Assembly (NCBI GenBank): GCA_944388125.1
Contig: CALXHO010000008.1
Coordinates: forward strand, 1 to 63,416
Length of the DNA stretch: 63,416 nucleotides
Reading direction: 5' to 3'
DNA from: an uncultured Gemmiger sp.
GTDB taxonomy: Bacteria > Bacillota > Clostridia > Oscillospirales > Ruminococcaceae
The notes beneath the pieces were generated by a model. The model saw nothing but the letters and a program-made list of their open reading frames with translations, searched no databases and was not told the DNA's origin. Positions 37,606 to 56,177 of this stretch are shown piece by piece (position 1 is the stretch's first letter; every line of letters starts with the position of its first letter). The position numbers were made by a program, and so were the translations under genes.

Positions 37606-37660
37606 CCGGCAGGACTTCCACAAAACAAGAAACCCTTTGCCGCGGGATGCTGCGGCAGGC

Positions 37661-37695
37661 CAAGGGGCCGCCCTCCGGGGCGGCCCCTTGTTTTG
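37661..37695 (+). terminator. terminator after the surface-protein pseudogene
   Basis: CAAGGGGCCGCC and GGCGGCCCCTTG form a strong stem with a short loop, followed by TTTT. Confidence 0.8.
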
Positions 37696-37706
37696 GGGCG
37701 GGGCGC

Positions 37707-37736
37707 TTGCGCCGCCCCGCCCGCCCCGCTTATAAT
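37707..37736 (+). promoter_or_regulatory. promoter of the HAD-like gene
   Basis: TTGCGC (37707-37712), 18 nt, TATAAT (37731-37736); the coding start lies 33 bases later. Confidence 0.6.
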
Positions 37737-37768
37737 AGGAATCACAAAGGAACAAGGAGGGGGCAGCT

Positions 37769-38248: not shown

Positions 38249-38266
38249 AGGAGGGGCTGTCCGCCC

Positions 38267-39098
38267 ATGTCACAGATCATCCAACTGACCGATTTGTCCG
38301 CCCCCGAGCTGGACGTCTATGCCCGGCTCACCGACACCCAGCTGCGCAGCCGGGCCGAGCCGGAGAAGGGCATCTTCATTGCCGAGAGCCCCAAGGTCAT
38401 CACCACGGCGCTGAATGCGGGGTATACCCCTCTCTCCTTCCTGATGGAGGCCCGCCACATCACGGGGGATGCCGCGCCCCTGCTGGCCCGCTGCCCCGAC
38501 GCTCCCGTCTATACCGGCAGCCGGGACCTGCTGCGCCAGCTCACCGGCTTTGCCCTGACCCGCGGGGTGCTGTGCGCCATGCACCGCCCTGCCCTGCCCG
38601 CCGTGGAGGAGGTCTGCGTCGGGGCCCGGCGCATCGCCGTGCTGGAGGGGGTGGTGGACTCCACCAACATCGGGGCCATCTTCCGGTCGGCGGCGGCTCT
38701 GGGCATCGACGGGGTGCTCCTCACCCCCCACCTGCTGCGACCCTCTCTGCCGCCGGGCCATCCGGGTGAGCATGGGCACCGTCTTTCAGATGCCCTGGAC
38801 CTATATCGGGGACGACCCCGCCCAGTGGCCCCACCCCGGCCTGGACCGGCTGAAGGCTATGGGCTTTGCCACCGCGGCCATGGCCCTCACCGACCAGTCG
38901 GTGAGCCTGCGGGACCCGGCCCTGGCCGCCGAGGAAAAGCTGGCTATCGTCCTGGGCACCGAGGGGGACGGCCTGGCAGACCATACGGTGGCGGAGTGCG
39001 ACTACACCGTGCGCATCCCCATGGCCCACGGGGTGGATTCCCTCAACGTGGCGGCGGCCGGGGCGGTGGCCTTCTGGCAGCTGGCCGCGCCCCAGTGA
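38267..39098 (+). pseudogene. frameshifted SpoU/TrmH-family RNA 2'-O-methyltransferase gene
   Basis: The first frame gives a substrate-binding N-terminal domain and the start of the knotted SpoU domain (RIAVLEGVVDSTNIGAIFRS, LGIDGVLLTP). The second gives its completion (RVSMGTVFQMPWTYIGDD, LGTEGDGLADHTV, RIPMAHGVDSLNVAAAGAVAFW). Between them the ACCCCCCACC tract near 38726-38735 has one C too many: with one C removed the text reads LLTPTCCDPLCRRAIRVSMG, as expected for the family. All catalytic motifs are otherwise intact, so this is either a recent inactivation, a slippage-prone tract or a sequence error. The second part alone cannot make an active enzyme. Confidence 0.85.
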
Positions 39099-39117
39099 AT
39101 ACAGGAGGCGGTTTTCC

Positions 39118-39999
39118 ATGCTCATCCAGGAACAGCTCAAACAGCAGGCGGGCTTCTCCGACGTGGAGCGCAGCATCGCTGACTTCATCCTGGCCCAGGG
39201 GGCGGGGCTCAAGCAGCTCAGCGCCCGGCAGATCGCGGCGGAGGCCTATGTCTCCCCCGCGTCGGTGGTGCGTCTTTGCCAGAAACTGGGCTACGACGGC
39301 TACAATGCCTTCCGGGACGCCTGGCTGGCGGAACAGGAATACCTGTCCAGCCGGTTCCAGGACCTGGACGCCAACCATCCCTTCACCCCCGGCGACCCCA
39401 TCACCGTCATTGCCCGCAAGCTGGGTGCCCTCTACCAGGAGACCATCGACGACACCCTGGCCCTGCTGGACGGCGACGCCCTGGTCAAGGCGGTGAACTA
39501 CTGCCGCCGTGCCCGGAACATCTATGTCTGCGCCGGCGGCGCCCAGATCTCCCTGGCCGACTCCTTTGCCGAAAAGATGGCCAAGATCGGCAAGCCGGTG
39601 GTGCTGTCCCCGCGCAGCGACCTCATGTACTTCCACGCCTGCAACTGTGAGCTGAAGGACTGCTTCATCGTGCTGTCCTACTCGGGGGAGACGCCCCAGA
39701 CCCTGCGGGTGGCCCGCAAGCTGAAACAGCGCCGGGTCAACACCATCGCGGTGACCTCCTACGGCAGCAACACCCTGGCGTCCCTGTTCGACTGCGTCCT
39801 CTGCGTCTCCACCCGGGAACGGCTGGTGAACAATATGGGGACTTTCAGCGCCCACCTCACCGCCCTGTTCGTGCTGGACGTGCTGTATGCCGGGGTGCTC
39901 AGCCAGAACTACGACGCCGTGGCCGCCGACCGGGTGCACAACGTCCGGGAGTTCGAGGTCTACCGCCACAGCGACAACCCCCTGCTGCGGGAGGACTGA
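39118..39999 (+). CDS. RpiR/MurR-family transcriptional regulator
   Basis: The 293-residue protein is a paralogue of the 35717 regulator. It has an HTH at 1-75 (QIAAEAYVSPASVVRLCQKLGYDGYNAFRDA) and a SIS domain at about 120-255 (YVCAGGAQISLADSFAEKMAKIG, FIVLSYSGETPQTLRVARKL). AGGAGG precedes the ATG. It stands upstream of the second PTS-GH1 operon but is separated from it by a terminator and a promoter, so regulator and target are transcribed apart. Confidence 0.93.
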   Translation: MLIQEQLKQQAGFSDVERSIADFILAQGAGLKQLSARQIAAEAYVSPASVVRLCQKLGYDGYNAFRDAWLAEQEYLSSRFQDLDANHPFTPGDPITVIARKLGALYQETIDDTLALLDGDALVKAVNYCRRARNIYVCAGGAQISLADSFAEKMAKIGKPVVLSPRSDLMYFHACNCELKDCFIVLSYSGETPQTLRVARKLKQRRVNTIAVTSYGSNTLASLFDCVLCVSTRERLVNNMGTFSAHLTALFVLDVLYAGVLSQNYDAVAADRVHNVREFEVYRHSDNPLLRED

Positions 40000-40031
40000 C
40001 CCTCCCCCTTCCTTTTTTGAAACGATTCCCC

Positions 40032-40081
40032 ACAGGCGGGCACGCCGCCGCAGCAATGCGGCTGTGCCCGCCTGTTTTTTT
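40032..40081 (+). terminator. terminator of the second rpiR-type gene
   Basis: CAGGCGGGCAC and GTGCCCGCCTG form an 11-bp stem with an inner CCGC hairpin, followed by seven T. Confidence 0.85.
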
Positions 40082-40214
40082 GCCCTTTGGCAGATTGCAC
40101 CAACCCGTCCGGCAAAATTCTGACAGCCTGCCATGGGTTTTGGCCGGGTGTTTCACAAAGCCCGGCCCAGACACCAAAAATGTTGCAACACTGTTGAAAC
40201 AAAACGGCGAACCA

Positions 40215-40243
40215 TTGTCTTTTGCCCTTCCCCGCGCTAGACT
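40215..40243 (+). promoter_or_regulatory. promoter of the second PTS-GH1 operon
   Basis: TTGTCT (40215-40220), 17 nt, TAGACT (40238-40243). Just upstream (about 40178-40200) TTGCAACACTGTTGAAAC contains imperfect TTGCAAC/GTTGAAA half-sites that could bind RpiR. The rest of the gap up to the start codon holds no gene. Confidence 0.55.
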
Positions 40244-40350
40244 GAGATCACAGAAAACAAATCGATTTGCAGCGAAAAAAGTCCCCGCGACGGCGGGGCG
40301 CAAGGGAAACTGGATGTTCCAAATATTGTGAAACGGAAAAGGAGAAAGTC

Positions 40351-43168
<2,818 letters not shown>

Positions 43169-43191
43169 ATCGGAAAGGAGAACCCGCAACC

Positions 43192-43842
43192 ATGTTTGTC
43201 TATCTTCCCAGCTGCAATTTTACCGCCACCTGCCCCCAGGCCAGCAAGTGGATGAAGGACTATCTGGCCCAGAAGCCGGATGTGAAGGTGGCCGGCTGCT
43301 GCCGTCCCACCCAGAAGACCCTCACCGCCGACGATACGGTGCTGTCCATCTGCCTGACCTGCTCGGCCATCACCCATGAGGTCTCCCCCCAGGCCGGGGA
43401 GGAGAGCCTGTGGGAGTACCTGCTCACCGACGAGAGCTTCCCCTGGCCGGACTACCACGGGGAGGAGATGGTCATTCAGGACTGCTGGCGCGCCCGCAAC
43501 AAGCCCGCCATGCAGCACGCCGTGCGGGAGTGCATGAAGCGGATGAACATCGTCCCCATCGAACTTGAGGAAAACTTTGAAAAGACCCGCTTTGACGGCG
43601 TCTGGCTGTACAATCCGGTGGCCCAGAAAAACCTGGACATCGCCCCCAAATATTTCAACCACATCCGGGACAACGATGTGGAGCTGATCCCTCCCGAGGA
43701 GCAGAAAGCCCGCATGGTGGAGTGGGCCAAACAGTACGGCGACCGCCGTGTGGTGACCTACTGCACCGCCTGCCTGAAAGGCACCCTGCTGGGCGGCGCC
43801 AAGGGCGTCCACCTCATGCAGCTCATGACCCGGACCCTGTAA
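43192..43842 (+). CDS. Cys-rich protein with CCG-domain-like motifs, unknown function
   Basis: The 216-residue protein has paired cysteine motifs reminiscent of CCG domains in heterodisulfide-reductase-like proteins: CNFTATCP near the N-terminus, GCCRP, CLTC, and YCTACLKGTLLGGAKGVHL near the C-terminus. These could bind an Fe-S cluster or form disulfides. No membrane helix or signal peptide. It follows the second GH1 gene by 23 bp in the same operon, an odd partner for sugar catabolism. AAAGGAG precedes the ATG. Function is not assigned. Confidence 0.7.
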   Translation: MFVYLPSCNFTATCPQASKWMKDYLAQKPDVKVAGCCRPTQKTLTADDTVLSICLTCSAITHEVSPQAGEESLWEYLLTDESFPWPDYHGEEMVIQDCWRARNKPAMQHAVRECMKRMNIVPIELEENFEKTRFDGVWLYNPVAQKNLDIAPKYFNHIRDNDVELIPPEEQKARMVEWAKQYGDRRVVTYCTACLKGTLLGGAKGVHLMQLMTRTL

Positions 43843-43855
43843 GATTGACCAGAAA

Positions 43856-43898
43856 AAATCCCCGCCCCCGGCAGAACAAACCGGTGAGGCGGGGATTT
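43856..43898. terminator. bidirectional terminator
   Basis: AAATCCCCGCC and GGCGGGGATTT pair; A and T runs on both sides serve the second PTS operon and the convergent MATE gene. Confidence 0.8.
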
Positions 43899-43925
43899 CT
43901 GTGTGTATGGGCAGGCGGCGAAACC

Positions 43926-45326
43926 TCAGGCAGCGGCCTTGTCCCGCTCCAGGGCGGAGAGTTCCGGCATGACGGTCAGGCGCATGGTAATGTAGCAGGC
44001 CAGTCCGCCGATGACGTTGGAGATGGGCTCGGCCAGAAAGACTCCGTTGACCCCCAGCCCGGCCACGTGGGGCAGAATCAGGGTCAGGGGCACCACGATG
44101 ACGGCCTTGCGCAGCAGGGAAAAGAAGATGGCCATTTTTGCCTTGCCCAGGGACTTGAAGACGCTCTGTCCCGTGAACTGGAAGGCCATCATGACAAAGC
44201 CGAAGAAGTAGATGTGCAGGGAGGGTACGGCGGCCTCCAGCAGGGCGGGGTCCTGGTTGAAGATGCGGATGAACAGGGTGGGAAAGGCGGAAATCAGCCC
44301 CCAGATGAGGAGGGTATAGCCGAAGCCCAGCTGGGTCATGAAGCGGATGGCCTGCCGCACCCGGGTGATGCTGCGGGCGCCGTAGTTGTAGCTGATGATG
44401 GGGGAGGTGCCGTCGGTGAGGGCCATAACGGGGGTCTGGGCGATCTGGCGCACCGAGTTGATGACGGTCATGACGCTGACATAGATGTCCCCGCCGAAGG
44501 TCTGCAAAGTGGAGTTGCAGGCCACCTGGACCAGGCTGTCGGTGAAAGACATGACAAAGCTGGAGGTGCCCAGGGCCACAATGCGGCCGATGCAGGCAAA
44601 ATCGGGGCGGAAGCCCTTCCATTCCAGGGTCAGCTCCGCCTGGGGCCCGGTGAGAAAGCGCACCACCCACACGGCGGACAGAAACTGGGAAAATACGGTG
44701 GCGATGGCGGCGCCCCGCACCCCCATGCCCAGCAGGAAGATGAGGACCGGGTCCAGCAGGATGTTGACGGCGGCGCCCAGCAGTACGGTGAGCATGCCGA
44801 TCTTGGCAAAGCCCTGGCTGTTGATGTAGGGGTTGAGGCCCAGGGAAGTCATGACAAAGACGGTACCCAGCAGATAGATGATGAGGTAGGCGGCGGCGTA
44901 GGGGTAGGTGTCGTCGCTGGCGCCCAGCAGGTAGAGGATGGGGCGGTGAAAGGCGATGCCCGCCACCGTCAGCACAGCGCCGCAGGCCAGCAGCATGAAC
45001 CAGGCGTTGGCCATGATGCGGCGGGCCTTGGGCAGGTCCTTCTCCCCACGGGCGATGGAGCACAGGGGCGCGCCGCCCACCCCGAACAGGTTGGCAAAGG
45101 CGGTGACCAGCGTCACCACCGGAAAGCAGACCCCCAACCCGGCCAGGGCCAGGGCGCCCTCCCCGGGCAGCTTGCCGATGTAGATGCGGTCGACGATGTT
45201 GTACAGAAGGTTGAGCACCTGGGCCACCAGCATGGGGGCGGCCACGGCAAGGACGTTCTGCCGGACGCTGCCGGTGGAAAAATCCACCTGGCTGGAAGAG
45301 GTTCCCGGGGTGTGCTTTGACAACAT
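43926..45326 (-). CDS. MATE-family multidrug/Na+ efflux transporter
   Basis: The 466-residue protein has the two six-helix halves of MATE pumps, with VLNLLYNIVDRIYIG in helix 1-2 and the repeat-type segment TSPIISYNYGARSITRVRQAI in the second half. Length is normal, so this copy serves as a yardstick for the shortened MATE at 52986. AAGGAG lies before the ATG at 45326. The region upstream carries nested inverted repeats. Confidence 0.92.
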   Translation of the reverse strand: MLSKHTPGTSSSQVDFSTGSVRQNVLAVAAPMLVAQVLNLLYNIVDRIYIGKLPGEGALALAGLGVCFPVVTLVTAFANLFGVGGAPLCSIARGEKDLPKARRIMANAWFMLLACGAVLTVAGIAFHRPILYLLGASDDTYPYAAAYLIIYLLGTVFVMTSLGLNPYINSQGFAKIGMLTVLLGAAVNILLDPVLIFLLGMGVRGAAIATVFSQFLSAVWVVRFLTGPQAELTLEWKGFRPDFACIGRIVALGTSSFVMSFTDSLVQVACNSTLQTFGGDIYVSVMTVINSVRQIAQTPVMALTDGTSPIISYNYGARSITRVRQAIRFMTQLGFGYTLLIWGLISAFPTLFIRIFNQDPALLEAAVPSLHIYFFGFVMMAFQFTGQSVFKSLGKAKMAIFFSLLRKAVIVVPLTLILPHVAGLGVNGVFLAEPISNVIGGLACYITMRLTVMPELSALERDKAAA

Positions 45327-45345
45327 GGACTGGGCATCTCCTTAC

Positions 45346-45419
45346 GCTATGATTATTTTTTGAAAGTAAAATCCCGAAAGTGTATTTTTTATCATAGCAT
45401 AATCGGGAAAAAGAGTTAA
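45346..45419 (-). promoter_or_regulatory. promoter of the first MATE gene with nested inverted repeats
   Basis: On the minus strand, TTAACT (45414-45419), 17 nt, TATGAT (45391-45396). Two interleaved dyads surround it: GCTATGAT (45346-45353) with ATCATAGC (45391-45398), and TCCCGA (45372-45377) with TCGGGA (45403-45408). This suggests operator control. Confidence 0.55.
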
Positions 45420-45449
45420 GTATTTTTTTGCTCCCGCAAGGAAAAGACA

Positions 45450-45487
45450 AAAATGCCCGCAGGCCGCTGCTTTTTGCGGCCTGCGGG
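45450..45487 (-). terminator. terminator of the yitT gene
   Basis: CCCGCAGGCCGC and GCGGCCTGCGGG form a 12-bp stem; on the minus strand CATTTTTGTC follows. Confidence 0.8.
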
Positions 45488-45509
45488 AAAAAACAAGGAA
45501 AAAGGAAGC

Positions 45510-46379
45510 TTACAGAAAGGCGGTCTGCTGTTCGGGGTCGATGAAGCCCTCGCCGTAGACCTCGCTGGTGTCCGAGATCATGACCATGCAGCTGGGGTCG
45601 ATGCGGTAGGCGGCGGTGCGGATGGTGTAGACCTGGGGCCGGGCGCAGACGCACAGCAGCATCTGGCGCTCGGTTCCGGTGTAGGTGCCCAGGGCCCGCA
45701 GCATGGTGGAGCCGCGGTCGGCATCCCGGGCGATGCAGTCGGCGATCTCCTGGCCCTTGGTGGTGATGATGGTCAGCATCTTGCTGGAACTGCTGCCGTA
45801 CATGACCTTGTCGATGACCAGGGAGGTAGCCGCCGTGGTGATGAGGCCGTAGAGCACCGCGTCCACCGACCCGAACACCGGCCAGCTCAGCAGGATGATG
45901 AAGAGGTCGATGAGCCCGGTCACCGCCCCCACCGACAGATGGGGCCGCAGCATCTTGATGGACATGGTGAGAAAGTCGGTGCCGCCGCTGGAGGTGCCCC
46001 GCATGTACATCAGCGCCAGGGAGACGCCCAGGGTGATGCCGGAGAACACCGCCGCCAGAAGCGGGTTGCCGCCGTAGCCGGGAATGCGGGTAAAGACCAC
46101 GTCCTGGAAGAAGGTGCACCACAGCATGGTGATGAGGGTCTTGCCGAGAAAGCTCCGGCCCAGGAATTTCAGGCTCAGCAGGATCAGGGGCACGTTGAGC
46201 ACCAGGGTGGTGATGCCGATGGGCAGATTCCACAGATGGTTGCCGATCAGGGCCAGGCCGGACAAACCGCCCGGGGCGAAGTCGGCGTTCTGGGCAAAGT
46301 AGCAGATGGAGACGGCATACAGAAGGCCCGCTGCAATGTTGTACAGCTGGTCGATGAGCAGGGGACGGAACTTTTTCAT
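45510..46379 (-). CDS. YitT-family membrane protein
   Basis: The 289-residue protein has five or six N-terminal helices of the DUF161 type (YFAQNADFAPGGLSGLALIG, LMYMRGTSSGGTDFLTM) and a cytoplasmic C-terminal DUF2179 domain (TIITTKGQEIADCI, YTIRTAAYRIDPSCMVMISDTSEVYGEGF). The family is widespread in Firmicutes, and a transport role is only suspected. AAGGAG lies before the ATG at 46379. A promoter is at 46500-46527 and a terminator follows, so it is a single-gene unit. Confidence 0.92.
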   Translation of the reverse strand: MKKFRPLLIDQLYNIAAGLLYAVSICYFAQNADFAPGGLSGLALIGNHLWNLPIGITTLVLNVPLILLSLKFLGRSFLGKTLITMLWCTFFQDVVFTRIPGYGGNPLLAAVFSGITLGVSLALMYMRGTSSGGTDFLTMSIKMLRPHLSVGAVTGLIDLFIILLSWPVFGSVDAVLYGLITTAATSLVIDKVMYGSSSSKMLTIITTKGQEIADCIARDADRGSTMLRALGTYTGTERQMLLCVCARPQVYTIRTAAYRIDPSCMVMISDTSEVYGEGFIDPEQQTAFL

Positions 46380-46499
46380 AGGCAAAACTCCTTGTTCGGA
46401 TGGGGTTCGCCCGATGCGGGCGGAAAGTACGGCAGGCCGCCCGATTCCCGGCGGCAAAAAGGCGCCCCGCACACCGCGGACGCCCGATCTTCTTTTCCT

Positions 46500-46527
46500 A
46501 TTGTAACACTGTGAATAGGGGTTTGAA
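46500..46527 (-). promoter_or_regulatory. promoter of the yitT gene
   Basis: On the minus strand, TTCAAA (46522-46527), 16 nt, TACAAT (46500-46505). On the plus strand a TATAAT at 46583-46588 may serve the divergent SDR gene; its -35 is poor. Confidence 0.5.
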
Positions 46528-46640
46528 CAGCCCCCCGGCAAAAAATCCTGCCCCGGGCCTGGGCGGGCGGGGCTCTGCCGTGTATAATAAAAGGAGTGAA
46601 AAATGACCCGGCAGCTTCACGAAGCGGAAAGGCGGCAAAG

Positions 46641-47483
46641 ATGAAAAAGATTCTGGTTACAGGGGCGGGCGGCTTTGTGGGGACCCGCATTCTTGCGCAG
46701 CTGGGGGACCGGTATGAGATGGCGGCCTTTCCCCGGGGCATGCTGGCATCGGCAGACCGGGGGCAGGTACTGGCCGCCGTGCGGGCGGCGGCGCCGGAGG
46801 TCATTCTGCACACGGCGGCGGTGTCCGACACGGGGTACAGCGAGGCCCACCCCGACCAGTCCTATCGCGCCAACGTGGAGCTGACCCTCTGGATGGCCGA
46901 GGCCGCCCGGGAGGTGGGGGCAAAACTGGTCTGCTTCAGCTCCGACCAGGTCTATGCGGGCCTGCCGGGCAAGGGGCCTTTTGGGGAGGAGGACGTCCGC
47001 ACCCCGGCCAACGTCTACGGCCGCCACAAGCGGGAGGCGGAACAGCGGGGGCTGGAGATCCTGCCCGACGCCGTCTTTCTCCGGGCTACCTGGATGTATG
47101 ACCTGCCCGGCTACGGCCTGCCCATCCGGCCGAATCTTCCCCTCAACCTGCTGCGGGCGGCGCTGCGGGGGGAGGAGGCGGTCTTTTCCCCCACGGATTA
47201 CCGGGGCGTCACCTATGTGCGCCAGGCGGTGGAAAACCTCATCCCCGCCATGGCCCTGCCCGGCGGATGCTACAACTTCGGCAGTGAGAACCCCCTGGAC
47301 ATGGATGCCACCGCCCGGGCGTTCTGCGCGGCCATGGGCATCGCTCCCCGCCTGACGCCCGGCGACCGGGTGCGCAGCCTGGCTATGGACTGCGGCAAGG
47401 CCCGGCGGGCGGGCATCGTCTTTGACGACACGGCGGCAGGCATCCGCCGCTGCCTGGCCGACTACGGCCTGGATTCCTTCTGA
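46641..47483 (+). CDS. NAD(P)-dependent SDR protein of the RmlD type
   Basis: The 280-residue protein has the nucleotide-binding motif GAGGFVG (8-14), VILHTAAVSDTG, the catalytic-type FSSDQVYAG and YGRHK, as in extended short-chain dehydrogenases related to dTDP-4-dehydrorhamnose reductase. No other rhamnose or sugar-nucleotide genes are nearby, so the substrate is open. The ribosome site is weak (AAAGGCGG). The gene is bordered by a divergent yitT and a strong terminator. Confidence 0.85.
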   Translation: MKKILVTGAGGFVGTRILAQLGDRYEMAAFPRGMLASADRGQVLAAVRAAAPEVILHTAAVSDTGYSEAHPDQSYRANVELTLWMAEAAREVGAKLVCFSSDQVYAGLPGKGPFGEEDVRTPANVYGRHKREAEQRGLEILPDAVFLRATWMYDLPGYGLPIRPNLPLNLLRAALRGEEAVFSPTDYRGVTYVRQAVENLIPAMALPGGCYNFGSENPLDMDATARAFCAAMGIAPRLTPGDRVRSLAMDCGKARRAGIVFDDTAAGIRRCLADYGLDSF

Positions 47484-47548: not shown

Positions 47549-48361
47549 TCAGCCGCCCGTGCCGTCGGCGGCCAGGCGGGTGTAGGCGTCCAGCTTGTCC
47601 CGCACCAGGGGCAGGGACGGGTCCAGATAGTTCATCTGGGTGATCTGCTTCACCGTCTGTTCGGGGGAGACCTGGAAGCGGATGCGGGTCAGGTACTCGT
47701 AAAAGTTCATCCCCATGGTGTTCTTGAAAAAGGTGGAGATGTAGGTGCGGTTGTACTGGGAGATGCGGGACAGTTCCTCCAGGGTGATCTTGTCGGCGTA
47801 GTTGGCCTCCACATACTCGGTGATGCGGCGGATGGTCTCCCGGTGGAGGGAATCCTCCTTGGACAGGGTGGGGATGACCTTGGGGGAACACCGGGTGCAC
47901 AGGGTGGCCAGCAGCATTTCCAGGGCGCTTCTGGCTGCCAGGGAGGCGTAGGGTCCGCCCTGCCCGGCGGCCTTCATCAGGGCGGCGGCGCAGAAGCGGA
48001 TGCGGTTGAACCGGGGGGCAAAGCGGTCGGCCTCCCCGCAGACGCAGCCGGGGAAGGAGTACAGATGCTCCGGCTTGACAAAATCCCGGAAAGCTCCTGC
48101 GGGAAACCGAAGCACCAGCGCCACCGTGTGCTGGTCCAGGGCAAAGGAGGCATGTCCCACCGCCGGGTCGATGAGGATGAGGTCGTCCTCATGCAGCACA
48201 TGCATGGAACCGCCCCGGCAGTACTCGGCGCTGCCCTTGAGCACGATGTTCAGCTCGTATTCCTGCTCATGCCAGTTGTAGCGGAAATTCATGATCTCAT
48301 GGGCATAGCAGGTGAAGTCCAGCCCGTCCCGCGGCCACTGCATGATGTAACGTCCGTCCAT
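47549..48361 (-). CDS. AraC-family regulator with an abnormal C-terminus
   Basis: The 270-residue protein has a cupin-type sensor part (residues 1-105, with WHEQEYELNIVLKG and LILIDPAVGHASF) and the first AraC HTH (KITLEELSRISQYNRTYIST, 191-210, then FFKNTMGMNFYEYLTRIRF). After residue 229 the expected second HTH and the FKK-TP-YR ending are missing and replaced by about 40 unrelated residues (VSPEQTVKQITQMNYLDPSL and onward). With one HTH it may bind DNA poorly or not at all. It is the first of five genes in a row with such breaks. The divergent catabolic genes at 48804-52903 would be its natural targets. Confidence 0.8.
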   Translation of the reverse strand: MDGRYIMQWPRDGLDFTCYAHEIMNFRYNWHEQEYELNIVLKGSAEYCRGGSMHVLHEDDLILIDPAVGHASFALDQHTVALVLRFPAGAFRDFVKPEHLYSFPGCVCGEADRFAPRFNRIRFCAAALMKAAGQGGPYASLAARSALEMLLATLCTRCSPKVIPTLSKEDSLHRETIRRITEYVEANYADKITLEELSRISQYNRTYISTFFKNTMGMNFYEYLTRIRFQVSPEQTVKQITQMNYLDPSLPLVRDKLDAYTRLAADGTGG

Positions 48362-48674
48362 CCCGCATTCTCCTTTCCGTTATGACAAAAGAATATCACA
48401 TTTCAAACATTTTCCCTATGGTTTTTATTTGAATCCCCGCGAAAAATCCCGCTCCCGGTCCCGCCTGCCGGGCAAAGGCTCCGGAGGGTGCAGCCAGGCC
48501 TTCCGTCCCCCGGCGGGGACGGGGACTTCGTCAAACTGCTCAACAAAAAATGCCGTTCCTCAGCACTTTCCACAGGGAAAATGTTTGACTGAAACCATTT
48601 TTCCGGCACAAAACAAGGCCTTGTGAAATTGCACAAAAAAGACGGCAGATAAAACAAAATTTCGAATATTATCA

Positions 48675-48703
48675 CCGACAGCATCCTTTTTCACTGGTAG
48701 ACT
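48675..48703 (+). promoter_or_regulatory. promoter of the catabolic block
   Basis: CCGACA (48675-48680), 17 nt, TAGACT (48698-48703). The -10 and following bases (TAGACTGAAG) resemble those of the second PTS operon (TAGACTGAGA). The remaining divergent gap 48362-48674 is AT-rich near 48600-48670 and holds no gene. Confidence 0.5.
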
Positions 48704-48803
48704 GAAGACACCAAGACAGGAACCGTCCCGGGAAACGATCTTCTGTTGAAACAGCTACCCCCGGGGTCCCGCACAAGGGGCCCGGCAGAAAGGATGTTTT
48801 AGG

Positions 48804-50324
48804 ATGAGCGAAAATACCCAGCTGATCATCTGCCTCGTGATTTTTGCGGCGTCGCTGATCAGTTATCTGCTGAACAAGATCCCCATGTGGATCACCGCCA
48901 TGGGCGCGCTGGTGCTGCTGGTCGTCACCGGATGCCTGGACATGACCACCGCCCTCAGCGGCCTGTCCAACACCAACACCGTCCTGATGGGCTCCATGTT
49001 CGTCGTCGCCGCCGGCCTGAGAAAAACCACCTTTGTGGACACCCTCTGCACTGGCGTCATGAAGCTGACCCGCGGTTCCTTCCGCAAAGCCTACTTCGGC
49101 TATCTTCTCATCGCCGTGCTGCTGGCACAGCTGATCCCCAGCCCCATGGTCGTCTTTGCCATCGTCTCCCCCCTGCTGGCCGAACTGTGTGAGAAGGTGG
49201 GCGAGAGCGTCACCAAGGTCATGTTCCCCCTGGTGGTGGTCGCCATCGGCACCACCGGCATCCTGCCCCTGGCCAGCGCCGTCTCCGACGCCGCCCAGTA
49301 CAACGGCTTCATGCAGACCTATAACATGACCGATTACACCTTCACCGCCATGGACTTCACCATCGCCCGCTGGCCCATGCTGATCCTGATCCCCGCCTGG
49401 GCACTGTTCCTGGCTCCCAAGTTCATGCCCGACAAGCCCAGCCAGCCCATCGCCGGCGCCCGCAGCGCAGGCCAGAACCAGAAGAAACTCTCCAAATTCT
49501 CCGACATTGCCGGTACTGTCGTCTTTTTTGCCACCATCATCTTCCTGGTCCTCTCCGACTACATCGGCCTGCAGTCCTGGATGGTCGCCCTGGTGGGCGG
49601 CATGCTCATGGTGCTGTGCGGCACCCTGGACACCCGGGAAGCCATGGGCAGCCTGCCGGTGGACAGCATCCTGCTTTTCGTCGGTGCCCTGGCCATGGGC
49701 AGCGCTCTCAGCGCCACCGGCGCCGGTGAGGTCATCGGCAACGCCCTGGCAAACGTACTGGGCGGCAGCACCAACAGCTACCTGATCGGCGGCCTGTTCT
49801 TCGTGGTGCCTTTCATCATCACCCAGTTCATGCTCAACCGCGCCGTCAGCCAGATCTTCATCCCCCTGTGCATCCTGACCTGCCAGACCTTTGCCGCCAG
49901 CAACGGCCCCCGCCCGGCCGCCGTGCTCATGGAGTATTTCCCGGCCAATATGACCGCCGACCCCATGTCCAAGCTCAACGAGGAGCAGCTGGCCGATCCC
50001 CGGGAGGTCCGCCGCGCCGAGACGGCCCGGCTGTACAACGCCTTCTACTGCTCGCCGGAGGAGGGCAAGAACCCCCTGGCCTCCCCGGCCTTTGCCCCCG
50101 ACGAGCTTCTGGCCTGGTTCCCCGACACCCTGATCCTCTCGGCCGGCAAGGACACCCTCTGCGAGGAGGACGAGGAGCTGGCCCTGCGCATGGCCCGCTG
50201 CGGCGTCAACGTGACGCTGCGCCGGTTCCGCCAGTCGCCCCACGGCTTCACCACCAACCGCATGGGCGAATGGGAGGAAGCGGTGGCCCTGCACGCAGCC
50301 TTCCTGCGTGCCCATCTCGACTGA
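48804..50324 (+). CDS. chimeric gene: DASS/SLC13-type permease joined to the tail of an alpha/beta hydrolase
   Basis: Residues 1 to about 360 form a polytopic SLC13/CitMHS-like transporter for organic anions (IPMWITAMGALVLLVVTGCL, MFVVAAGLRKTTFVDTL, ILLFVGALAMGSALS, QFMLNRAVSQIFIPLCILT). From about residue 370 the text becomes the C-terminal part of an alpha/beta-hydrolase esterase: FPDTLILSAGKDTLCEEDEE with the acid Asp and SPHGFTTNRMGEWEEA with the catalytic His. The nucleophile motif GxSxG and the first half of the hydrolase are missing, as are the last permease helices. The frame stays open for 506 residues. A deletion joining two neighbouring genes is the simplest reading; function is doubtful. 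Confidence 0.85.
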   Translation: MSENTQLIICLVIFAASLISYLLNKIPMWITAMGALVLLVVTGCLDMTTALSGLSNTNTVLMGSMFVVAAGLRKTTFVDTLCTGVMKLTRGSFRKAYFGYLLIAVLLAQLIPSPMVVFAIVSPLLAELCEKVGESVTKVMFPLVVVAIGTTGILPLASAVSDAAQYNGFMQTYNMTDYTFTAMDFTIARWPMLILIPAWALFLAPKFMPDKPSQPIAGARSAGQNQKKLSKFSDIAGTVVFFATIIFLVLSDYIGLQSWMVALVGGMLMVLCGTLDTREAMGSLPVDSILLFVGALAMGSALSATGAGEVIGNALANVLGGSTNSYLIGGLFFVVPFIITQFMLNRAVSQIFIPLCILTCQTFAASNGPRPAAVLMEYFPANMTADPMSKLNEEQLADPREVRRAETARLYNAFYCSPEEGKNPLASPAFAPDELLAWFPDTLILSAGKDTLCEEDEELALRMARCGVNVTLRRFRQSPHGFTTNRMGEWEEAVALHAAFLRAHLD

Positions 50325-50340
50325 AAGGCAGGAGATCCCA

Positions 50341-51903
50341 TTGAAAATCACCGATCTGCAGCTGGTTTATGCCAAGCATTATCTCTTCGTCAAGATCTAC
50401 ACCGACGCCGGCATCGTCGGCCTGAGCGAGGCGGGCAACTGGGGCTTTCTCAACGCCACGGCGGCCGCCATTGAAAAATTCAAGCCCTACCTCGTGGGCA
50501 AGGACCCCTTCCGCATTGAGGACATCTGCCAGAATCTCTACCGCGCCCAGTATTTCCGGGGCTCGGTCATCATGTCGGCCATCTCGGCGGTGGACATCGC
50601 CCTGTGGGACATCAAGGGCAAGGCCTTCGGCGTGCCGGTGTACGAGCTGCTGGGCGGCCGCGTCCGGGACAAGGTGCGGGTCTACGCCTCGGTCATGACC
50701 AAGGAGGACGACCCCCACGCCCTGGCCGAGGGCTACCGCGCCCTGCAGCAGCAAGGCTTCACGGCGGCCAAGATCTTTGTCAACGGTCCCATCCGCAGCG
50801 CCAACGGCGGCATGGATGAGTTCTTCTCCGGCCGCATCGAGGACGAGCTGGAAAAGATCCGCATCTGCCGGGAGGCCGTGGGTCCCCACTTCGATTTTGT
50901 GCTGGAGGTTCACCGGGGCATGACCCTGCCCGAGGCGGTGAGCTTCGGCCGTGCGGTGGAACCCTACCGTCCCATGGTGCTGGAGGACCCCGTTCCCCCC
51001 GACAACATCGACACCATGGCGGAGGTGGCCTCCAAGGTGGAGGTGCCCATCGCCTCCGGCGAGCGGTTCATCAACCTGCGGGAGTTTGAGATGCTCATGA
51101 GCCGCCATGCGGTCCAGTACGTCCGCCCCGACGTCTGCGCGGTGGGCGGCATCACCACCACCAAAAAGATCTGCGCCCTGGCCGAGGCCCACGACGTGCT
51201 GGTCATCCCCCACAATCCGGCGGGCCGGGTGTGGGAGCGCCGGGAGCTGGAACAGATGATGGAGCTGTTTGCCCGCTACGACGTCACCGTCATCTCCGAC
51301 GAGATCTGGTCCGACCTGATCCTGCCGGGATACACCCACATCCCCACCCAGTCGGTGTCGGAGGATGCCCGCCGCCGCACGGTGGCCCTCTACGCCCCCT
51401 CCAAGACCTTCAACCTGGCGGGGCTCATCGGCTCCTACCACATCATCTACGACCCTGCCCTGCGGGACCGGGTGCGCCGGGCGGGACAGCAGACCCACTA
51501 CAATTCCCAGAACGTTCTGTCCATGCACGCCCTCACCGCCGCATACAGCGCCGAGGGCGCCCGCTGGCTGGAGGAGCTGCTGGCCGTCCTTGACCGCAAC
51601 GTGGAATATGCGGTACGCTTTATACAGCAGCATTTCGACGGCGTCACGGTGGCCCGCCCCCAGGGGACCTACATGCTCTTCCCCGACTGCAGCGCCTGGT
51701 GCGCCGCCCACGGACAGACCATCGACCAGCATCTCGCCGCCGGACACCGGGTGGGCGTGATCTGGCAGAACGGCCGGTCCTTCCACGGGGAAGGCTGTAT
51801 CCGCATGAATCTGGCCCTGCCCTACAGCCGTGTGCAGGAAGCCTTTGACCGGCTGGACCGCCATGTCTTTCACGGGTCCGGCCCCCAATCAACCGGGAGG
51901 TAA
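50341..51903 (+). CDS. chimeric gene: enolase-superfamily sugar-acid dehydratase joined to a MalY-type aminotransferase
   Basis: Residues 1-291 follow the mandelate racemase/galactonate dehydratase family: MSAISAVDIALWDIKGKAFG, metal ligands in LEVHRG (Glu189 region), LEDPVPP (Glu215) and SGERF (Glu241), and the catalytic His291 of IPHNP. Immediately after, the protein continues as the second part of a PatB/MalY PLP enzyme: AGRVWERRELEQM, VISDEIWSDLI and the Schiff-base Lys355 in APSKTFNLAGL, to its normal end. The aminotransferase lacks about its first 165 residues, including the PLP phosphate-binding start. Both families carry Pro-His-Asn-Pro at this place, so 51208-51222 marks the join. 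TTG start at 50341 with GGAG 6 nt before. Confidence 0.88.
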   Translation: MKITDLQLVYAKHYLFVKIYTDAGIVGLSEAGNWGFLNATAAAIEKFKPYLVGKDPFRIEDICQNLYRAQYFRGSVIMSAISAVDIALWDIKGKAFGVPVYELLGGRVRDKVRVYASVMTKEDDPHALAEGYRALQQQGFTAAKIFVNGPIRSANGGMDEFFSGRIEDELEKIRICREAVGPHFDFVLEVHRGMTLPEAVSFGRAVEPYRPMVLEDPVPPDNIDTMAEVASKVEVPIASGERFINLREFEMLMSRHAVQYVRPDVCAVGGITTTKKICALAEAHDVLVIPHNPAGRVWERRELEQMMELFARYDVTVISDEIWSDLILPGYTHIPTQSVSEDARRRTVALYAPSKTFNLAGLIGSYHIIYDPALRDRVRRAGQQTHYNSQNVLSMHALTAAYSAEGARWLEELLAVLDRNVEYAVRFIQQHFDGVTVARPQGTYMLFPDCSAWCAAHGQTIDQHLAAGHRVGVIWQNGRSFHGEGCIRMNLALPYSRVQEAFDRLDRHVFHGSGPQSTGR

Positions 51904-51909
51904 TGAAAA

Positions 51910-52903
51910 ATGGCACGAAAGTATCCCCATCTCTGCGCGCCCATCACCCTGGGCCGCGTGGTGTTCCGCAACCGCATGTTCTCGGCCCCCATGGGCGGCA
52001 CCGACATCACGGCGGACTGCAGCGTGGGTCCCCGCACCCCCCGGTTTCTATGAACTGCGGGCCAAGGGCGGCGCGGCGGCAGTCACCGCCAGCGAGCTGG
52101 TGGTCCACCCGGCCACCGACGCTTCCCACATGTTCCACCTCGACCTCAGGACCCCGGGCAATCTGGCCAGCTGGACCTTTCTGGCCGACGCCATCCAGCG
52201 CCACGGGGCGGTGCCCAGTGTGGAGCTGAGCCACTCCGGCCAGTACGCAGGCACCTACCTCATCGACAAGGACAAAAAGCAGGGCCTGACCCTGGCCCGC
52301 CAGATGGAACTGGCCGGGGTGGAGGTCCGCCTGAACACCACCGCCACCCCCGAACTGCTGGCCGAACTGGCCACTGAGGCCCTGATCCTGGCCACCGGCA
52401 GCACCCCCATCGTGCCGCCGCTGCCGGGCATCGACGGGGACAACGTGGTGGTCGTCAACAACTACTACCTGGAAAAGGACAAGGTGGGCGACAGCGTCGT
52501 CGTGCTGGGCGGCGGCCTGGCCGGCTGCGAGTGCGCCGTCCATCTGGGCATGGAGGGCAAGACCGTCCATCTGGTGGAGATGCGGGATCAGCTGGCGGTG
52601 GACTGCAACATCCGCCACCGCCCCATCCTCATGCAGATGGTGGACAAGTACACCACCGTCCACCTCAAGCACGCCGGCCTGCGCGTCACCGACGAGGGAC
52701 TGGTCTGCAAGGACGAGGCCGGCAATGAGGTGCTCATCCCCGGCAAGACGGTCATCTGCGCTGTGGGCCAGCGCTCCAACCGCACCGCCGTGGACGAGCT
52801 GCGCACCTGCGCCCCCTGGGTGCGGGAGATCGGCGACTGCGTCCGTGTCTCCAACATCACCAACGCCGTCTATCAGGGTTACCACGCCGCGCTGGACATC
52901 TGA
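51910..52903 (+). pseudogene. old-yellow-enzyme/FadH-type reductase gene with internal deletion and frameshift
   Basis: GGGAGG precedes ATG 51910. The N-terminus is that of 2,4-dienoyl-CoA reductase-like flavoenzymes (LGRVVFRNRMFSAPMGGTDI). The frame breaks at the C6 tract near 52037-52042; with one C less it would read GPRTPGFYELRAKGG and continue (AAVTASELVVHPATDASHMF, LSHSGQYAGTYL). After IDKDKKQ (about 52276) the text jumps into the C-terminal NAD(P)/FAD part (LARQMELAGVEVRLN, LILATGSTPIVPPLPG, VVLGGGLAGCECAVHLG). Most of the TIM barrel and the Fe-S Cys motif are lost: about 330 residues remain of a usual 640-670. It cannot encode a working enzyme. Confidence 0.85.
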
Positions 52904-52926
52904 TTTCCTGCGCTCATCCAGAAACA

Positions 52927-52968
52927 AAGCCACCGCCGTCCGGCAGCTGCCGGGCGGCGGTGGCTTTT
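52927..52968. terminator. bidirectional terminator
   Basis: AAGCCACCGCC and GGCGGTGGCTT form the outer stem with an inner CCGGCAG/CTGCCGG helix; T run on the plus strand. It separates the reductase remnant from the convergent MATE gene. Confidence 0.85.
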
Positions 52969-52985
52969 GCTGTGTAACAGGGAGA

Positions 52986-54116
52986 TCAGGAGAGAATGGG
53001 CTGAGACAGGGCAGCGCGGGCGGCTTCGGCGTCGCGCAGGCGGCGCATCTCCCCCCGGACGACCAGCACCGAGGTGACAAAGGCGACGGCGTCGGCGATG
53101 GGGGCGGTGAACAGGATGCCCGTCAGCCCGAAGAAGCGGGGCAGGATCAGCAGCAGGGGGACCAGGAAGAACACCTGCCGGGTCAGGGACAGCAGCACGC
53201 CCCGGATGGGCTTGCCGATGGCCGCGAAAAAGTTGGAGGACAAGAGCTGCACGCAGTTGACCACCACCATGAACAGGTAGCACCGCATGAAGAGGACGGC
53301 AAACTCAAAGTAGAGGGGATCGCCGGTACCGAAGAGGGCGACGATCTGCCGGGGGAAACACTCAAAGGCCACAAAGCCCGCGGCCGAGATGGCCAGGCTG
53401 ATCCTGACGGCCAGAGCATAGGCCCCCCGCACCCGGTCGTACTGTCCGGCGCCGTAGTTGAAGCTGATGATGGGCTGGGTACCCTGGGAGATGCCCACGA
53501 TGATGCCGGTGAGGATGGCGTTGACCTTGATGACGATGCCGCTGGCGGCCAGGGGGATCTCGCTGCCGTAGACCGACAGGGCGCCGTAGTAGGTCAGGGA
53601 GTTGTTGAGGACGATCTGCACAAAGGTGATGGCCAGCTGGTTGCAGCTGTTGCTCAGGCCCAGGGAGGCGATGCGCCGCCACTCCCCCGGGCAGGGGCGG
53701 AAATCGGGCAGGGTGAGGCGGATGTTGTGGAACAGCCGCAGAAGAACCGGCAGAAACAGCTCCACGATCACCATGTAGGCAAGGCCCAGCACCACCATCA
53801 TGGAGACGGCGGCCCCCACTGTGCGCTGTGCCTGGTCCCGGTCGCCGCGGCCCAGACTCAGGTTGAACCGGGCCGCGCCGCCCACCCCGATGAGCAGGGC
53901 GATGGACAGGCAGATGGTGGAGAGGGGAAAGGACACGTTGGTGGCCGCGTTGCCCAGATACCCCACGCCGTTGCCGATGAAGATCTGATCCACGATGTTG
54001 TACAGCGAGCTCACCAGCATGGCCAGCACGCTGGGCACGGCAAAGCTGCGCAAAAGCTGGGGCAGGGGGCGCACCCCCAGGGGATTGGGCCCGGCGGCGT
54101 TATGGCTGGGGTTCAT
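52986..54116 (-). CDS. MATE-family transporter with an internal deletion
   Basis: The 376-residue protein is clearly MATE (SSLYNIVDQIFIGNGVGYLG; TQPIISFNYGAGQYDRVRGA) but is about 80 residues short. After residue 129 (VELFLPVLLRLF) the text jumps to HNIRLTLPDFRPCPGEWRRI. The segment found between these points in the complete copy at 43926-45326, roughly helices 4 to 6 with the RAxGxP-type loop, is missing, while the frame is kept. With an odd topology it is probably non-functional. Its ATG overlaps the end of the MarR gene by 17 nt, so both were one operon. Confidence 0.85.
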   Translation of the reverse strand: MNPSHNAAGPNPLGVRPLPQLLRSFAVPSVLAMLVSSLYNIVDQIFIGNGVGYLGNAATNVSFPLSTICLSIALLIGVGGAARFNLSLGRGDRDQAQRTVGAAVSMMVVLGLAYMVIVELFLPVLLRLFHNIRLTLPDFRPCPGEWRRIASLGLSNSCNQLAITFVQIVLNNSLTYYGALSVYGSEIPLAASGIVIKVNAILTGIIVGISQGTQPIISFNYGAGQYDRVRGAYALAVRISLAISAAGFVAFECFPRQIVALFGTGDPLYFEFAVLFMRCYLFMVVVNCVQLLSSNFFAAIGKPIRGVLLSLTRQVFFLVPLLLILPRFFGLTGILFTAPIADAVAFVTSVLVVRGEMRRLRDAEAARAALSQPILS

Positions 54117-54552
54117 CGGCGGCCTCCTTGTCGTTTTCCTCCACGGCCCGCAGGGCGATGGACTCCAGTGCCTGCAGCACAAGATCCCGGGACTCGGCGG
54201 GAATACCGGCCAGCAGACGGTCCTGCCAGTCGGTGCAGATGGCCTTGATCCGGGGATAGGCTTCCCGCGCCCGGTCGGTGGGGAACAGCTGGTAGGTGCG
54301 GCGGTCTTTGGTGTTCTGCTGCCGCATCAGAAAGCCCTCCTTCTCCAGCGCCACCAGCGCCCGGGTGATGTTGCTGGGATTGACAAAGAACAGGGCAAAA
54401 AACTGATCCTGGGTGATGCCGGGGTACTCGCACACCCGCATCACATATTTGTACTGGCTGCTGCCCAGCCCCAGGGGGGCCAGGGCACGGTCCAGGTGCA
54501 TGGCGGTGTAGCGAAAGCCCACCGACAGCCATTTGGCGATGGTTTGTTCCAT
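54100..54552 (-). CDS. MarR-family transcriptional regulator
   Basis: The 150-residue winged-helix repressor has YPGITQDQFFALFFVNPSNI as the recognition region, EKEGFLMRQQNTKDRRTYQL as the wing (with the DRR of MarR), and helical ends for dimerisation. Ligand release would derepress the MATE gene with which it overlaps. A perfect palindrome over its own -35 is a likely autoregulatory site. GGAG lies 11 nt before the ATG at 54552. Confidence 0.92.
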   Translation of the reverse strand: MEQTIAKWLSVGFRYTAMHLDRALAPLGLGSSQYKYVMRVCEYPGITQDQFFALFFVNPSNITRALVALEKEGFLMRQQNTKDRRTYQLFPTDRAREAYPRIKAICTDWQDRLLAGIPAESRDLVLQALESIALRAVEENDKEAADEPQP

Positions 54553-54595
54553 GGCGGTGAATGCTCCTTCTGCATGGTTGGATTGGCATGGCTCC

Positions 54596-54624
54596 AGTAT
54601 ACCACAAAATCTTTGCGCGCGCAA
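54596..54624 (-). promoter_or_regulatory. marR-MATE promoter with palindromic operator
   Basis: On the minus strand, TTGCGC (54619-54624), 17 nt, TATACT (54596-54601). The -35 lies within the perfect palindrome TTGCGCGCGCAA (54613-54624), a plausible MarR operator. Confidence 0.7.
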
Positions 54625-54654
54625 TGGATTTGGGGCGCTTCCCCGCCGGACGGG

Positions 54655-54692
54655 AAAAAAGAAAAGGCGGCCATGCCAGCGCACGGCCGCTC
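54655..54692 (-). terminator. terminator of the third MATE gene
   Basis: GCGGCC (54667-54672) and GGCCGC (54685-54690) form the stem; on the minus strand CCTTTTCTTTTTTCCC follows. Confidence 0.65.
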
Positions 54693-54716: not shown

Positions 54717-56072
54717 TCAGCCGTCCAGGCTGCGCATCAGGCGGGTCAGCACCACAAGAGCGATGCCGGCCAGAATGACCTCGGCCACCGGCTGGGCGTA
54801 GCCCAGGCCGTAGAGGGGCAGGAGGCGGTTGAGCAGGTAAAGGGCGGGGATCTCCAGCACGACCTTGCGCAGGATGGCAAAGACCAGGGCCACCCGTCCG
54901 GTGCCGCAGGCCTGGTAGACGCCCACCACCAGAAAGTCAAAGCTGAGGAAGGGCAGGGACAGGCTCATGGCGGCGAGCAGCCGGGTGCCGTAGGCGATGA
55001 TCTCGGCGTCCTCGATGAAGAGGGCCACAAGATTTCCCGCTGCAAAGTGGAAAACCACCGACATCAGCACCAGAAAGCTGACGCTGACGGTGGCGGAGAA
55101 GCGGATCACCGACCGCATGCGGGGATAGGAGCGGGCGGCGTAGTTGTAGCTGATGAGGGGCATGATGCCCTGGGACAGCCCCTGGGAGACATACATGGGG
55201 ACCATGTTGATCTTCTGGACGATGCCCATGGCAGCCACGGCAGCGGGGCCGTAGGCGGCGGTGAAGTTGTTGAGCACTGTCATGCCGGTGACGTTGAGCA
55301 GGTTCTGGATGGAGGAGGGGATGCCCACCCCGCAGACTCCCACCACGATCTCACGGCTGGGGCGGAAGGCGGAGGGCCGGATGCAGACGTAGGTCTTGCC
55401 CCGGCGGACAAAGAGCAGCACGAAAAAGTAGAGGCAGGCCACGCAGTTGGAGAGGAAGGTGGCAAGGCCGGCGCCCGCCGCGCCCATGTCAAAGCCCCAG
55501 GGCAGGATGAACACCGGGTCCAGCAGAATGTTGAGCAGACAGCCGCTCATGGTGCCGATGCTGGCGTGGAGGGCGCTGCCCTCCGCCCGGACCAGATAGG
55601 CCATGACCACGTTGAGGATGGCAGGGGCGGCGCCGCAGGTGGTGGTCCAGAAGAGATAGCCCTGGGTGGCGGCGGAGGTCTGGTCGGTGGCGCCCAGCAG
55701 GGTCAGGAAGGGCCCCTGAAAGACGGTGTACAGTACCGAGAAACACAGCCCGAAAAACAGGGCGCAGTAAAACCCGAAGGCGGAGCTGCGCTGCACGGTA
55801 TCCAGATCCCTGCGGCCCAGGGCCCGGCTCATCATGCTGGAGGAGCCCACGCCGAACAGGTTGTTCACCGCGTTGAAGGCCAGCAGCACCGGAGCGGCCA
55901 GGGTGACCGCCGAGGTCTGGATGGAATTGTTGAGCATGCCCACAAAATAGGTGTCGGCCAGGTTGTACAGGACCATGACCAGCGAGCTGAGAATGGTGGG
56001 CACCGCCAGGGTGGCGACGGCGCGGGGGACGGGGACGCTCTCGAACAGAGACTGACGTTGGGTGTTTTCCAT
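54717..56072 (-). CDS. MATE-family multidrug/Na+ efflux transporter
   Basis: The 451-residue protein is a complete MATE pump with twelve predicted helices: SSLVMVLYNLADTYFVGML, NNLFGVGSSSMMSRALGR, ILLDPVFILPWGFDMGAAGAG, and GIMPLISYNYAARSYPRMRS. It is a different subtype from the other two MATE genes and is transcribed alone. GGAG precedes the ATG at 56072. The upstream AT-rich region carries a promoter and an inverted repeat. Confidence 0.93.
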   Translation of the reverse strand: MENTQRQSLFESVPVPRAVATLAVPTILSSLVMVLYNLADTYFVGMLNNSIQTSAVTLAAPVLLAFNAVNNLFGVGSSSMMSRALGRRDLDTVQRSSAFGFYCALFFGLCFSVLYTVFQGPFLTLLGATDQTSAATQGYLFWTTTCGAAPAILNVVMAYLVRAEGSALHASIGTMSGCLLNILLDPVFILPWGFDMGAAGAGLATFLSNCVACLYFFVLLFVRRGKTYVCIRPSAFRPSREIVVGVCGVGIPSSIQNLLNVTGMTVLNNFTAAYGPAAVAAMGIVQKINMVPMYVSQGLSQGIMPLISYNYAARSYPRMRSVIRFSATVSVSFLVLMSVVFHFAAGNLVALFIEDAEIIAYGTRLLAAMSLSLPFLSFDFLVVGVYQACGTGRVALVFAILRKVVLEIPALYLLNRLLPLYGLGYAQPVAEVILAGIALVVLTRLMRSLDG

Positions 56073-56122
56073 GATTTCTCCAGTCTGGCCGGGGCACGGC
56101 CGGGGTGCGGGGGCAGGATAAT

Positions 56123-56164
56123 TGTTAATTGATTTAATAATAACATATTTGCGCCCAAAAGCAA
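56123..56164 (-). promoter_or_regulatory. promoter of the third MATE gene
   Basis: On the minus strand, TTGCTT (56159-56164), 16 nt, TATTAT (56137-56142). TGTTA (56123-56127) and TAACA (56141-56145) are inverted arms over the -10, a possible operator. Confidence 0.5.
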
Positions 56165-56177
56165 AGCCATACCCCAA

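Follow-up and report, generated by a model that had tools for sequence, protein, structure and literature searches.

Five adjoining genes of an uncultured Gemmiger sp. each contain one abrupt junction: an AraC-family regulator, a CitMHS permease/hydrolase, a DgoD-like dehydratase/PatB-like aminotransferase, an OYE-FAD reductase and a MATE transporter. The damaged genes span 6.6 kb of a contig of 63,416 nucleotides (CALXHO010000008.1, assembly GCA_944388125.1), which was analysed in full and which we call the window, and they lie in an accessory slot of about 7 kb between an RmlD-like reductase gene and a second MATE gene, MATE2. The reading that we favour, with moderate confidence and from comparison of sequences, is that the junctions record deletions at short homologies, which recently struck a dispensable cassette. 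Three observations together fit such deletions: exact homology at two of the junctions, confinement of the damage to the slot, and damage in the corresponding slot of a sister genome.

The window is the entire contig C8 of a draft genome of 2.57 Mb (115 contigs, 86.75% complete), and it was compared with 34 other Gemmiger genomes, the handles G001-G024 denoting relatives' genomes and G000 the window's own. Among named loci the closest to it is contig DXFO01000019.1 of Candidatus Gemmiger faecavium (G024), and further matches were found to Gemmiger formicilis and to Faecalibacterium strains.

One junction in each of five genes

A sequence-only reading of the window had claimed internal junctions in these five neighbouring genes, and the claim is confirmed both by Pfam and by blastn against relatives. 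The breaks fall at 47,681, 49,899, 51,208-51,232, 52,282-52,292 and 53,730-53,741 in the blastn alignments (junctions J1 to J5, Table 1), close to the positions 47,670, 49,900, 51,215, 52,276 and 53,729 that had been read from the letters. Where each gene had been said to switch family or lose a block, Pfam separates the cases: the permease/hydrolase and dehydratase/aminotransferase genes are joins of two families, and the AraC, OYE and MATE genes have internal losses within one gene. Four of the genes had been counted as open in frame. The OYE frame is indeed broken, but by a separate extra C and not by its junction; all five junctions keep the frame, the OYE and MATE losses (954 and 282 bp) being multiples of three, and none of the five frames contains a nonsense codon. 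Deletions of about 0.25-1.5 kb had been proposed; these two losses are the measured ones, and the AraC loss is estimated at about 0.13 kb.

The AraC gene has a single weak helix-turn-helix (HTH) match in Pfam (residues 185-218), and its tail has an orthologue in the AraC stub of G024. No close full-length relative was found among the 34 Gemmiger genomes: the best match is at 22-27% over most of the length, and G024 matches the tail only. At J1 a possible 10-bp similarity with one mismatch, between a 10-mer of the window and the G024 tail, is visible on one side only and would suggest homology. In the permease/hydrolase gene, CitMHS covers residues 22-374 and Abhydrolase_3 begins at profile position 88 (residue 359). 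The permease part lacks about its 62 last residues, while the hydrolase part begins after the GQSAGG region of its relative in G009 (full length, 299 aa), which we take to be the nucleophile site. Relatives of the permease (38-43% aa identity) and of the hydrolase (43%) are distant, and we estimate the loss at no less than about 0.65-0.75 kb. For J1 and J2 no close ancestor covers both sides.

The second fusion retains about the first 296 of about 381 residues of the dehydratase (MR_MLE_N/C, residues 11-295), followed by a PatB-type part that corresponds to profile positions 163-381 of 384; in Pfam, Aminotran_1_2 begins at profile position 134 (residue 277). The PatB-like part has a 74% identical paralogue elsewhere in the same genome, on contig C5, and the estimated loss is again at least about 0.65-0.75 kb. 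The OYE gene has lost 318 codons relative to G012, is similarly split relative to G009 and G022, and has a Pyr_redox_2 match with no match to Oxidored_FMN. The MATE gene has lost 94 codons relative to both G004 and G001, and its second MatE domain is partial. NCBIfam labels the parts as a DASS/CitMHS permease, a hormone-sensitive-lipase-like hydrolase, a galactonate dehydratase and a PatB C-S lyase, and the OYE gene as a bilirubin reductase/BaiCD/mycofactocin type OYE, with most scores under the curated cut-offs.

The full-length ancestors that the sequence-only reading hoped to find at orthologous loci are represented, for most parts, by longer versions in G012, G009 and G004. The permease (428 aa), dehydratase (381 aa) and OYE (665 aa) stand in one cluster in G012, where the esterase is a different one (574 aa); OYE is also intact in G022, and MATE is intact in G004 (495 aa) and G001. 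The fused or shortened proteins themselves were found in none of the 34 other genomes: in protein searches with the five genes, the matches listed extend at most 26 residues past a junction (for MATE, matches at E 1e-50 or better), so that the claim of damage survives the comparison that conserved fusions in close relatives would have undone. The peptide patterns used recovered no relative of the permease-hydrolase fusion from the genome contigs searched, and plasmid records gave nothing beyond short matches in dehydratase genes.

Table 1. Features of the slot and its surroundings, in window coordinates.
Feature	Coordinates	Strand	Basis or remark
Backbone, mostly collinear with G008 (86-93% nt)	25705..47471		blocks 25,705-28,641; 28,698-36,561; 37,705-47,471
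RmlD-like reductase, full length, left border of slot	46596..47483	+	80% aa to G024
AraC-family regulator without most of second helix-turn-helix, in frame	47549..48361	-	Pfam, relatives
J1, in AraC	47672..47681		blastn break
CitMHS/DASS permease + alpha/beta hydrolase C-terminal half, in-frame fusion	48804..50324	+
J2, permease to hydrolase	49886..49915		approximate placement
Galactonate-dehydratase-like + PatB-type C-S lyase/aminotransferase, in-frame fusion	50341..51903	+
J3, 11 bp common to both families	51208..51218		left G012, right the genome's own C5 paralogue
OYE/FadH-type flavin reductase with internal loss and frameshift	51910..52903	+
C-run with one extra C (+1 frameshift) in OYE	52037..52042	+	sole frame-breaking change found in cluster
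J4, 9 bp at both ends of segment lost relative to G012	52282..52290
Self-complementary 42-nt stretch between OYE and MATE	52926..52967		minus-strand self match
MATE transporter with internal loss, in frame	52986..54116	-
J5, 4 bp exact amid imperfect similarity	53730..53733		against G004 and G001
MarR regulator, apparently intact, paired with MATE	54100..54684	-	same pair in G004, G001, G018
MATE2, full length, right border of slot	54717..56177	-	85% nt to G024

Homology at the junctions

Relatives resolve three of the junctions. When the two ancestral sequences are aligned in register, they share an exact run of 11 bp at J3, of 9 bp at J4 and of 4 bp at J5. The run at J3 comes from a PHNP motif carried by both enzyme families. 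As expected for deletion between short direct repeats, an exact repeat bounds the lost segment on either side at J3 and J4, and for OYE and MATE the relatives keep the full segment at the same position in the gene. Only 0.017% of random in-gene deletion junctions (100-1,500 bp) have 9 bp of homology or more, and J3 and J4 are therefore very unlikely to be blind joins.

Codon usage suffices for in-frame junctions

Because all five junctions are in frame, and because the OYE and dehydratase remnants look constrained (see below), one could suppose that the fused and shortened proteins are functional new architectures under selection. We give this explanation hardly any credence. The proteins recur in none of the 34 other Gemmiger genomes, and function is very unlikely because the hydrolase half begins after GQSAGG, OYE is missing 318 residues as well as its frame, and AraC is missing most of its second DNA-binding motif, a helix-turn-helix. 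The frame itself has a simpler origin. Direct repeats in 425 genes of G008 share codon phase in 83% of cases at 9 bp, 87% at 10 bp and 91% at 11 bp. The same genes give 84, 86 and 89% when their codons are shuffled, and 32, 30 and 40% when their bases are shuffled. In 29 genes of E. coli K-12, 176 of 220 repeats of at least 9 bp are in phase, and 4-bp repeats in the G008 genes are in phase in 53% of cases. Selection for frame as a necessary cause is thus rejected, the codon-shuffle control alone reproducing the phase bias: codon usage alone suffices for in-frame junctions, and no selection is needed.

Since repeats mostly lie in codon phase, homology-driven deletion in such genes is expected to leave them open. 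This provides a testable reason for open in-frame fusions arising from short-homology deletion, and because codon phase suffices, a single in-frame fusion is no evidence of selection. The same bias holds for any homology-driven process, so the in-frame state does not separate biology from artefact. Both this origin of the frame and the location in an accessory slot had been missed by the sequence-only reading.

Within the sample, damage is confined to the slot

RmlD and MATE2, at the two borders, are full length compared with G024, in agreement with the claim that the flanking genes are complete. Synteny with G008 ends at 47,471, at the end of the RmlD gene, and a single alignment block of 9.8 kb (37,705-47,471) lies next to the cluster. 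In G024 the slot keeps RmlD, the AraC tail and MATE2, but the distance from AraC tail to MATE2 is 3.3 kb as compared with 7.0 kb in the window. These 3.3 kb contain a HAD phosphatase, a PTS IID gene and a presumably ceramidase-like gene that lacks its N terminus (Pfam gives no match for it at 1e-6); the PTS cassette and the AraC remnant lie at G024:C8 2,277-4,384. The G024 AraC gene is cut to about the last HTH plus tail, and this remnant is apparently joined to the tail of an IIC gene. The AraC stub and the N-terminally shortened ceramidase-like gene indicate that the sister slot has been damaged too, by different breaks. Around RmlD in 11 other genomes AraC and MATE2 are both absent (the G021 and G001 pieces extend only 5 and 3.4 kb past RmlD).

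Relatives of individual cassette genes are broken in other genomes as well. The OYE gene of G009 (G009:C23 4,934-6,888) is frameshifted into two overlapping frames of 377 and 293 aa. The MATE gene of G018 (G018:C34:88,000-99,000; 4,600-6,060, minus strand) retains only the N-terminal half; having lost its C-terminal half, it runs into sequence resembling the spacer behind the intact gene, and its loss differs from that of the window's MATE. The RmlD-MATE2 slot could conceivably be a hot spot of deletion, in which short-homology deletions, repeated or in bursts, make in-frame chimeras of neighbouring genes because short repeats in codon-biased DNA are locked to codon phase. We regard this as improbable, but if it were true, gut bacteria would have in such slots a natural source of new gene fusions.

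Outside the slot we find nothing comparable. The control sample comprised 463 kb of the 2.57 Mb (the window plus 20 stretches of 20 kb), in which 302 genes were picked as open frames with a coding-like GC pattern, without a trained gene caller. An orthologue of at least 45% identity was present for 133 of them in 1.6 Mb of G008 (of about 3.0 Mb), one of the 133 being the J3 fusion itself. After inspection of rows with trivial causes, none of the remaining 132 has a comparable junction, and the clustering is more than chance would give. The gene-only scan gave three gap rows (one of 26 residues at 86% identity, and two, of 27 and 37 residues, where the alignment identity is 27%) and four partly covered genes (the J3 fusion, the edge of a G008 piece, a low-complexity tail and an upstream extension).

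From the 135 genes outside the slot without a G008 orthologue, 33 were chosen for a Pfam check at E 1e-6. None of the 24 with a Pfam match switches family in mid-profile; nine of the 33 have no domain, and several have long unmatched stretches. One aldo/keto reductase ends in mid-profile and is followed by an iron-sulfur domain, which is the usual architecture. A control on 59 kb of G024, where 22 of 41 genes had an orthologue, likewise gave no such junction, the slot genes of G024 having no orthologue there. Within the 463 kb sampled, the damage does not extend beyond the cassette, and the similar junctions that would point to a genome-wide assembly or sequencing defect are not found elsewhere.

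The age of the losses

The ratio of nonsynonymous to synonymous substitution rates (Ka/Ks) was estimated against G012 for two pieces of OYE (0.11 and 0.12) and for the dehydratase (0.21); three intact flanking genes, compared with G024, have values of 0.21-0.31. Residue changes on the window branch and on that of G012 number 5 and 2 for OYE and 15 and 18 for the dehydratase, with no clear excess. From the lack of relaxed constraint in these two remnants the losses seem recent: it seems, on these figures, that OYE and dehydratase evolved as working genes until lately, while the MATE figure is not decisive. The description of the locus as decaying thus holds for the losses themselves, although the decay would have to be young.

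Slow serial decay should also have left nonsense codons. As none is present, the losses would be close in time or would form one burst. In this variant of the deletion reading the deletions are real and arose together, by replication template switching in one cell lineage, and PMC3161906 does report structural changes 'in bursts or showers' for starving E. coli. However, all five losses are simple deletions with no inversion or duplication seen, and the breaks in the sister slot and in the G018 MATE gene suggest repeated separate losses. We hold a single burst to be unlikely.

Deletion in the cell or artefact

If the junctions are present in cells, the following course of events would account for them. 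The Gemmiger chromosome would carry a variable cassette between RmlD and MATE2, with AraC divergent from a permease-hydrolase-dehydratase-aminotransferase-OYE operon and with a MarR-MATE pair, and five or more segments, ranging from about 0.13 to about 1 kb, would recently have been deleted from it. Each loss would most likely come from slippage or annealing at short direct repeats, independent of RecA, with one copy retained. With short repeats mostly in phase in codon-biased genes, open in-frame fusions would result without selection for frame. The fusion products would very probably be dead, and the cassette would be in the course of being lost. The sequences show the junctions, the intact relatives of most parts, the homology at J3 and J4, the frame and the confinement of the damage, whereas the presence of the junctions in cells, the slippage mechanism, the recency and the order of events are inferred from them.

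Several observations weigh against this account. Serial short-homology deletion, as originally proposed, has J3 and J4 in its favour, but the exact homology of J5 is 4 bp, whether G004 or G001 is used, and lends no such support. The 9-bp repeat at J4 is not the longest of its gene, the G012 copy having 12 repeats of 10-11 bp. Low Ka/Ks values are confined to the comparisons with G012; the MATE piece gives 0.43 against G004 and an OYE piece 0.53 against the more distant G009, and at 12-22% divergence about 1% of neutral change would be invisible. Five losses within 6.6 kb with zero nonsense codons are odd for slow serial decay. Finally, the source assembly is a draft (115 contigs, 86.75% completeness), and the broken copies seen (G000, G024, G009 and G018) are all in multi-contig drafts.

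The last point leads to the main rival, that the cassette is intact in the cell and that the junctions come from template switching in library amplification, from mis-merging of read pairs over about 10 bp or from misassembly of a low-coverage island. We consider it a serious possibility, if somewhat short of probable. Consistent with it, the junctions are clustered in one island of a fragmented draft, what is left of OYE and dehydratase evolves as intact genes do, and the in-frame bias is identical for any homology-driven process. A read merger may accept a chance overlap of about 10 bp with mismatches. The other broken copies (G024, G009, G018) are likewise in drafts while MATE is intact in G004 and G001, and the G018 copy shifts the odds slightly towards artefact. 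Yet the absence of comparable junctions in the 132 other genes is not what an artefact would lead one to expect, nor are the different breaks of the sister slot. Intact copies also occur in fragmented assemblies, namely G022 (180 contigs) and G001 (1,110 contigs), and the G012 copies are intact likewise. The OYE loss of 954 bp is also larger than usual short-read inserts.

The sequence-only reading had named repeated assembly collapse as its own alternative. In its plain form, collapse of a k-mer graph, this is disfavoured, and it fits poorly because the shared runs are 4-11 bp, far below the usual k of assemblers. The chicken-gut study that names Candidatus Gemmiger faecavium used MegaHIT with k 25-127, according to the available text of PMC8035907, in which 'merge' refers to bins and gene clusters and not to reads. 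The window may come from another study and another assembler. Collapse of a De Bruijn graph calls for a junction repeat no shorter than the smallest k, 25 in the study that names the sister metagenome-assembled genome, and the runs at J3, J4 and J5 are 11, 9 and 4 bp. Chimeric templates or read merging, in contrast, fit nearly as well as real deletions.

Relation to known systems

Ordinary deletional decay of dispensable operons removes pieces from accessory genes specific to a lineage and spares the backbone on either side. The Gemmiger cassette resembles this in having lost pieces beside an intact backbone, but differs in having no nonsense codon, a single frameshift and no sign of relaxed constraint in OYE and dehydratase. 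RecA-independent short-repeat deletion in E. coli K-12, which PMC5426353 describes for a plasmid and a genomic island, similarly removes the segment between repeats and keeps one copy. In Gemmiger, by contrast, there are five losses in one 6.6-kb cassette with clear homology at two junctions, and the evidence is confined to the sequence. The bursts in stressed E. coli share with the cassette the occurrence of several nearby structural changes, which are attributed to repeated template switching; those described in the accessible part of PMC3161906 are amplifications, inversions and duplications, whereas only deletions are seen in Gemmiger. With the terms chosen, the literature on genome reduction, misassembly and fusions by deletion yielded no matching paper, which does not show that none is in print.

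If the deletions are real, the operon has been caught during its loss, with breakpoints that point mutations have not yet blurred. If the junctions are artefacts, draft genomes may hold clusters of false open fusion genes that gene callers accept.

Other features

Judging by its self-complementarity, the 42-nt stretch between the OYE and MATE genes is probably a terminator hairpin, shared by these convergent genes.

Scans of all open frames had also produced junction candidates, which were rejected on their translations as antisense or out-of-frame open reading frames (ORFs) across spacers or as short gaps (26-43 residues) in the alignments; the larger candidates do not recur in the gene-only scan. 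Antisense open frames of up to 1,142 aa lie opposite real genes (e.g., 45,453-46,514 and 56,122-59,550), an effect of GC-rich codons, and such long frames were the source of false matches in the first ORF-based junction scans.

Within the backbone, 32,619-35,352 and 40,390-43,168, on opposite strands, are apparent paralogues (about 67-68% nt identity, from G008 cross-matches). On another contig, G000:C7 15,665-16,492 encodes a beta-trefoil lectin-like protein whose long tail is rich in Lys, Ala and Pro.

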